NCBI GenBank assembly: GCA_005116775.1 | Contig: SWDN01000003.1 | Location: forward strand, 418,956 to 454,687 | Length of the DNA stretch: 35,732 nucleotides | Reading direction: 5' to 3' | Origin: Nitrospira sp. | Lineage (GTDB): Bacteria > Nitrospirota > Nitrospiria > Nitrospirales > Nitrospiraceae | Shown here: piece after piece, positions 9,616 through 33,968 of the stretch | How the letters are laid out: each line of letters opens with the position of its first letter | Numbering within the stretch: the stretch's first letter is position 1 | Translations under genes and position numbers: made by a program | The notes under the pieces: generated by a model | Told to the model about the DNA's origin: nothing | The model's database searches: none | Seen by the model: the letters and a program-made list of their open reading frames with translations, nothing else

Positions 9616-10346
9616 CTATGCGGCCGTCACGGCGTTCTGCCCTGTCCGAGCCTCGCGCAACCGAGCCAGCGCCTCCGGACCACAACAGAACAACAGGTCG
9701 ATAGCCGACATCGCCGGTATAAACGGTTCATAGGCTTGAGGATACCTCGGATGTTGAAATTGCTGGATGTCCAACTTCAATCCAGCCAATTCAAATTTCT
9801 TCGTGTCCATATATTGCTCTCCGCCAGGACCAGACAAATATCCTGATGCCCCAACAGCACGGCAGAGATCGATTAACCGATCTGTTGGCTCGTCGCGGGC
9901 TTCCCATTCCGATGCAGCGCATACAGGTGTCATGATCCCGAACGCGCCGAGCAGCCAACGAATCACCGCCATATTCAGGTCATGCAACCGCTCCCACGGC
10001 GCCTCATAGAGGCTGCGCAATTCCGGAAGATAGCGGTCACGGAACGGCGCCCGGGCATACTGCATCTCGAGAGCGCGAAGATGTCGGCTCCGCCAGTTTA
10101 CTGTCTGGTTGATTCTGACATCTTTCACCAGTTGGCCAAAATGATGGAGAACCGGCACGGTCACCCACTGAAACCCATCCGCGGTTCTGATTCGATTGCG
10201 ATTTTGCCACTCGTTTTTCTTGAACTGCACCGAATCCAACGCAATGAACACGTCTGCCTGATCGATCTTGTCCAGATATCCGAGCCAGGGCAATCCAGAT
10301 AGCCAAGCCACGGTAGAAATTGCGGCTGATGAATTGTGACGCGCAT
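9616..10346 (-). pseudogene. WbqC family protein with a frameshifting 23-bp near-duplication in codons 11-18 (or an assembly junction)
   Basis: ORF from 10346 gives MRVTIHQPQFLPWLGYLD then shifts; ORF 9616-10311 gives LPWLGYLDKIDQADVFIALDSVQFKKNEWQNRNRIRT onward. Removing one 23-bp copy restores a canonical WbqC N-terminus. The intact 3' ORF could still start at GTG 10309-10311. Confidence 0.75.
10271..10316 (-). repeat. 23-bp imperfect tandem repeat in wbqC
   Basis: Minus-strand copies CTACCGTGGCTTGGCTATCTGGA (10294-10316) and TTGCCCTGGCTCGGATATCTGGA (10271-10293); 18/23 identical, five differences all synonymous in the ancestral frame. Confidence 0.95.
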
Positions 10347-32205: not shown

Positions 32206-33940
32206 TCACTGGGAATCGCGCCATTGTTTCCAAACTCGAGCCCAGTTTGCCTGTTCACAGGTCCAAAGGCATGACGTACTGTTCGTCAGTTGCCACGACA
32301 ACTCTCGCGCTCGATGCACATGCAGCGTCTCGCCGGAGGCTCTTCCGGTAAACCACACTCCTCCATCACGATCAGTTCGGAACACCGCGCTGCCTTCCAA
32401 CCCGTACGCTTCTAGAACAGTCTCAGCCGGATGTCTGTATCGGTTATGGCGGCCTGCAGAAAATACGGCATACTGGGGATGTATTGATGCCAACCAGTCA
32501 CGGCTCAGTGAGCTCGCTGCCCCGTGATGAGGCACCTTCACGACTTCGACTGGGCTGTGAAACGGTGAGCTGGTCATCCTCGACAAGCCATCGTGCTCGA
32601 CATCCGCGGCAAAGAGTATCGTATGATGACCACAGGTCAAACGTGTGACGACTGAACGATTATTCAGCATGCGCCCGCTGACACGATTCTCAGGAAGCCC
32701 CAAGTCGTGCTGTTCGTGAGCTGATGGGTTGAGCACGACGAGTCGGCAGGGACCGGACGATAGGATCTCTTGTCCTTCTCTTGCTACCCCTTCTCGTAGT
32801 CCTCGATACGCTAATGAGTCTTGTAGGCGTTGATAGAATGGCTCCTTGCGAGTCTCTCCTGATCCCCAATAGTGCTTGACCATGAAGTGGCGGAGCACCC
32901 AAGCCAGACCTCCGACATGATCGAGTTGGGGATGTGTGCCGATCACCGCGTCGATCGTGCGGATTCCCCTGTTCCAGAGAAACGGACCCACCACCGCACG
33001 GCCCATGTCGAATCGTTCATAGGCCGCCCCCCCGTCGATCAACACCACCTGTCCATCTGGTAGCTCAATCACCGCGCTATCGCCTTGCCCGACGTCGAGG
33101 AACGTCACTCGAAAGCGATCCCCATCGAGAAACAGCCGTGGAGACCAGGCCCACCACAATATGACCATCAACAATCCAGCGCCTGCCGCCCACTGAACCA
33201 GCCTGTGACCCATTCGCCGCCACAACAGTCCAAGGCAGCAATAAAACAGCGCCATCGCGAAGACCGATGGAGCTGCCACATGCCACTCTCCTCCTGGAAG
33301 CATTGACACCAAACGGACCGCTGCCACAAAGTGTTCAAGTAACCACTGATTCAGGGAAGCCAGGGGCAATATGGATCGCATGCACATTCCCTGACTCGAT
33401 AAATTTCACCGCATCAGACCCAGTCACCGTCGCGATCATATCGATCCCTTGCCGCTCAAGATAGGAAGCATAGTCGAATCCACCAGGGTTCAAGGATCCA
33501 CTAGGGCGTCGCAATGGAGCCAGAAAGCCGACCCGATCGCCTTGGAAAAGTATTCGTTCTGGCATACGCCAGGTCAATCGGACATGTGTGGATGCTTCCA
33601 ACCCATCGATTGGACCATCCATCCTGACAGTCATGACCAATTGGTCTGGCGTCAGTTGTACAGGGGCCACAATACGGCCAGTCATCTGGGCATCGGGCGA
33701 GTGCTCGGCCATGGGACCATGAGCGAATAGATTGACGACCACAGCCCAGTAGATCACTCCCACGACGAATGCGCCGTAAAGCCACGTCGCCTTGCGCGCA
33801 GATAGCCAACTGAATCGCTCAAGAACAACAGCGGCTAATGCGACAAGAAGGAGCAGAAATGAGGATGACAGGGGAAAATAGGAAATCTGTGATCCGATGA
33901 GGAGCCCGGCAATGAAGGCTACGGTGAGGGGCGGCAGCAT
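32206..33940 (-). pseudogene. comEC: Truncated comEC/rec2-like locus lacking the central competence channel domain
   Basis: ORF 33335-33940 = N-terminal DUF4131-like part (MLPPLTVAFIAGLLIGSQIS...GFDYASYLERQGIDMIATVTGSDAVKFIESG); ORF 32206-33387 = end of competence domain plus metallo-beta-lactamase part (FRVTFLDVGQGDSAVIELPDGQVVLIDGG...GTHPQLDHVGG). They are in different frames, overlap by 53 nt, and the multi-TM core is absent. Confidence 0.8.
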
Positions 33941-33968
33941 GAGCCTCCCTCAATGGAGGGCGACAACC

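Follow-up and report, generated by a model that had tools for sequence, protein, structure and literature searches.

A doubled and frame-broken start of wbqC in a Nitrospira metagenome scaffold is very probably an assembly artefact

Background

How does a gene with an intact body come to begin with two adjoining, diverged copies of the same short coding motif, one of them out of frame with what follows? This question is raised by a wbqC gene located in a polysaccharide-type gene cluster on the minus strand of the window, by which we mean the whole stretch of 35,732 nucleotides that was analysed (C23:418956-454687). The window lies within a 515-kb metagenome scaffold, C23, of a genome that is divided over 53 contigs and is 70% complete, and whose named relatives are Nitrospira. 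An earlier note on this DNA had described the two copies and proposed that they evolved separately before being joined, either by recombination between alleles or by a chimeric assembly. Here we compare the locus with its counterparts in relatives and with the rest of the scaffold, and we weigh these two routes, together with other possible origins, against each other.

Results

On the minus strand the 5' part of wbqC consists of four consecutive segments, ATGCGCGTCACAATTCATCAGCCGCAATTT, CTACCGTGGCTTGGCTATCTGGA, TTGCCCTGGCTCGGATATCTGGA and CAAGATCGATCAGG. The authentic 5' end of the gene (10317..10346, minus strand) starts with ATG and encodes MRVTIHQPQF. Relatives start at the homologous codon, and their wbqC begins M-R-V-T-I-H-Q-P-Q-F/Y or with near variants of this sequence. 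Downstream of it lie copy A (10294..10316, minus strand; CTACCGTGGCTTGGCTATCTGGA) and, directly adjoining, copy B (10271..10293, minus strand; TTGCCCTGGCTCGGATATCTGGA). Both are 23 nt long and both encode LPWLGYLD, with a last codon that is incomplete in copy A and is finished by the next base in copy B. The sequence is exactly as the earlier note had given it, and our comparison confirms that the copies differ at five of the 23 bases, in four codons (CTA/TTG, CCG/CCC, CTT/CTC, GGC/GGA), with all five differences synonymous. As assembled, the frame of wbqC breaks at 10293/10294, after the eighth residue of LPWLGYLD. The 23-nt offset does sever the HQPQF start from the remainder of the protein, as had been noted: the frame that begins with the ATG is 61 codons long and ends at 10161. 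From copy B onward the body of the gene (9616..10293, minus strand) is intact and in frame. A GTG at 10311 opens the frame of the remaining WbqC, and this ORF of 231 aa matches the Pfam family WbqC (PF08889) with an E value of 6e-72 over profile positions 5-216 of 218. Against most relatives of the same genus the body shows 79-85% identity, and in comparisons with five relatives 68-78 of the differing codons are synonymous and 32-38 nonsynonymous. The gene order of wbqC with PIG-L and DegT genes is common to the window and the relatives. In the relatives, however, WbqC is intact with its N-terminus in frame, while the copy in the window is frame-broken by the 23-nt duplicate.

The earlier note had named a duplication conserved in relatives as an observation that would speak against misassembly. 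What we find is a single in-frame LPWLGYLD copy, with minor variants at most, in 28 of the 28 relatives that have a readable wbqC start, and the alignments of many relatives to the window break at 10292/10293. Within the genus, pairwise differences in the 23-nt stretch range from 0 to 6 with a mode of 2, compared to five between copies A and B. A tandem identity of 18/23 at zero spacing is by itself unremarkable in a search of 475 kb, where simple repeats score alike. The duplication is nevertheless not a chance resemblance, because the motif encoded by both copies, LPWLGYLD, is single in relatives at this exact site, and because the probability that five random substitutions in 23 nt would all be silent is approximately 0.0003-0.0008. 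The silent-only changes, the between-species distance and the single copy in relatives together indicate, therefore, that A and B had diverged as coding sequence before they were joined. This supports the proposal, drawn from the sequence itself, that the copies evolved apart as coding alleles.

The further expectation that the two copies would match two different lineages was not borne out by alignment with the relatives. Neither copy has an exact match among the relatives' genomes, and the best matches, 21/23 and 22/23, are not decisive. The flanks of the join have the same nearest relatives at similar distances on both sides, with no detectable change of lineage, and their identity profiles show no shift. 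An assignment of A and B, or of the flanks, to two distinct lineages thus failed. Because the flanks show the same nearest relatives, it is from the copies only that we infer two source lineages at wbqC.

In the 475 kb that we read of the 515-kb scaffold there are 24 gaps, every one exactly 100 N long, and two of these lie at the borders of the window. Gaps of 100 N are also found in other contigs of this genome and in several RSF and CG24 loci. The fixed length of the gaps indicates that the sequence of C23 has been ordered and stitched and is not continuous. In published comammox Nitrospira MAGs, contigs have been ordered with the reference-based scaffolder MeDuSa (PMC8751384), in one case in combination with GapFiller (PMC7490378). 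The 100-N gaps are the sole pointer to this genome belonging to the sand-filter MeDuSa set, which they suggest. When overlaps were sought at the 24 visible N gaps of C23, only one was found, of 64 nt and 83% identity, at C23:174126. There, the sequence just after the 100-N gap (C23:174126-174225) resembles sequence about 100 bp before it and is not clearly coding; it is possibly an overlap of the wbqC type in which the Ns were kept.

A scan of C23 for abutting, diverged, out-of-frame overlaps identified two besides that in wbqC. One is in coaBC (C23:285312-285403; L127:5312-5403), where 46 nt are doubled with 39/46 identical, and the other is in accB (C23:288268-288611; L127:8268-8611), where 172 nt are doubled with 149/172 identical and 17 of the 22 differing codons silent. 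Both overlaps are blunt and frame-breaking. In family searches these coaBC and accB genes are the sole detectable genes of their kind in the genome, and each consists of two overlapping out-of-frame pieces. A bacterium is not expected to survive without coaBC or accB, and the genome here is incomplete. Relatives have a single copy of accB, and their alignments break exactly at the accB join. This join also switches the closest relative, with identity to genome G013 going from 78% on the left to 95% on the right and identity to genome G004 from 83% to 89%. As a control, 765 kb from other loci were scanned, and these yielded a single comparable overlap, diverged and out of frame, around the end of a gene in an unrelated MAG. 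A MAG labelled Gammaproteobacteria, the wbqC of which is 63% identical to that in the window, contains a diverged tandem copy of 119 nt (99/119) around the end of a gene (L067:1085-1322).

The window contains a second hidden join, undeclared and free of Ns, within comEC on the minus strand (33377..33378). The gene lacks approximately 803 bp (approximately 268 aa) of its central part that are present in the relatives checked across the join. Its N-terminal piece (33338-33949, minus strand) matches DUF4131 and its C-terminal piece (32209-33405, minus strand) matches Lactamase_B, the metallo-beta-lactamase domain. The missing middle part was searched for in the rest of the genome and was found nowhere.

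Discussion

Our results suggest that the broken, doubled start of wbqC is very probably an artefact of genome assembly and not a biological feature, and that the organism itself presumably has a single, normal and intact wbqC. Two contig ends very probably spanned the same 23 nt of wbqC with different alleles, copy A probably closing the upstream assembly piece and copy B opening the downstream one. These ends would have been set side by side and joined blunt, with the overlap unmerged and no Ns left, so that the 23 nt were doubled and the frame of the gene was shifted. The alleles probably derive from co-occurring Nitrospira populations, and both alleles would have been present in the sample. 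As for the software step behind the join, one that leaves no Ns would need an extra operation, for example scaffolding by the assembler or gap closing.

The errors described for MAGs include overlaps left duplicated where a scaffold has been joined, and also chimeric joins (Chen et al. 2020, PMC7111523). In the former, overlapping contig ends that remain unmerged result in duplicated sequence, as at wbqC, and across the latter phylogenetic profiles may differ, as at accB. The published case of a duplicated overlap differs from ours in that it keeps its Ns, whereas the wbqC join has none and its ends differ at five bases. Both of the routes that the earlier note had left side by side, recombination and chimeric assembly, would account for the junction. 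Joining during assembly is however much better supported, because the scaffold is stitched with runs of 100 N, because coaBC and accB show the same fault and because comEC contains a further join. Three findings count against an artefact: the other joins of the scaffold hold 100 N while that in wbqC holds none, the flanks of wbqC, unlike those of accB, keep the same closest relatives, and no known genome has an exact match to either copy.

The main alternative is a real chromosomal junction, in which illegitimate recombination with related Nitrospira DNA, 23 nt out of register, has turned wbqC into a pseudogene. Such an event would account for the two separately evolved copies as well as for the frame break, and the polysaccharide-type cluster in which wbqC sits is of a kind where exchange and loss of genes are common. 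If true, alleles from two species of Nitrospira would have recombined, and wbqC, in a surface-polysaccharide-type cluster, would have been inactivated by it. We consider this improbable. Comparison with relatives shows no apparent microhomology at the joining point on either side, and the body of the gene is otherwise intact and without decay. The stitching with 100 N also argues against it, as does the finding that coaBC and accB, of which no other examples were detected, suffer from the same fault, a condition that should be intolerable to a living cell. The copies could also have arisen in place, by slippage or tandem duplication, and diverged later, which would explain why they exactly adjoin. 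This route would, however, have to produce five silent changes and no others after the frame was already broken, for which the probability is <0.001, and a divergence of 22%, which is of between-species size, in a gene that elsewhere shows no decay; we regard it as highly improbable. The least likely explanation, to which we give almost no weight, is a functional arrangement, in which either the message is recoded, by a -1 frameshift or by ribosomal bypassing of 23 nt, or a genuine short WbqC is initiated at the GTG at 10311: a -1 shift at GAT would yield an in-frame LPWLGYLDLPWLGYLD and an ORF with the GTG start does exist, but the duplication is found in no relative, RNA folding is ordinary (z -0.02), and the GTG, which lies inside the duplicated stretch and is unlikely to be the real start, would lose the MRVTIHQPQF that relatives retain.

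With an assembly join as the preferred explanation, there is no biological novelty in the wbqC duplication, and it matters for quality control only. Where diverged overlaps abut within conserved genes, they can be read as a sign that a scaffolded metagenome bin contains hidden joins, and C23 has at least three such joins in addition to the hidden deletion join in comEC. Pseudogene calls, claims of gene loss and synteny taken from this genome are not trustworthy across such hidden joins. In 635 kb sampled from the other contigs of the genome, we also observed one 40-nt tandem out-of-frame duplicate (39/40) on contig C9 (L209:19139-19218), which disrupts the coding frame for a small, glycine-rich protein of membrane type and is probably another unmerged overlap.
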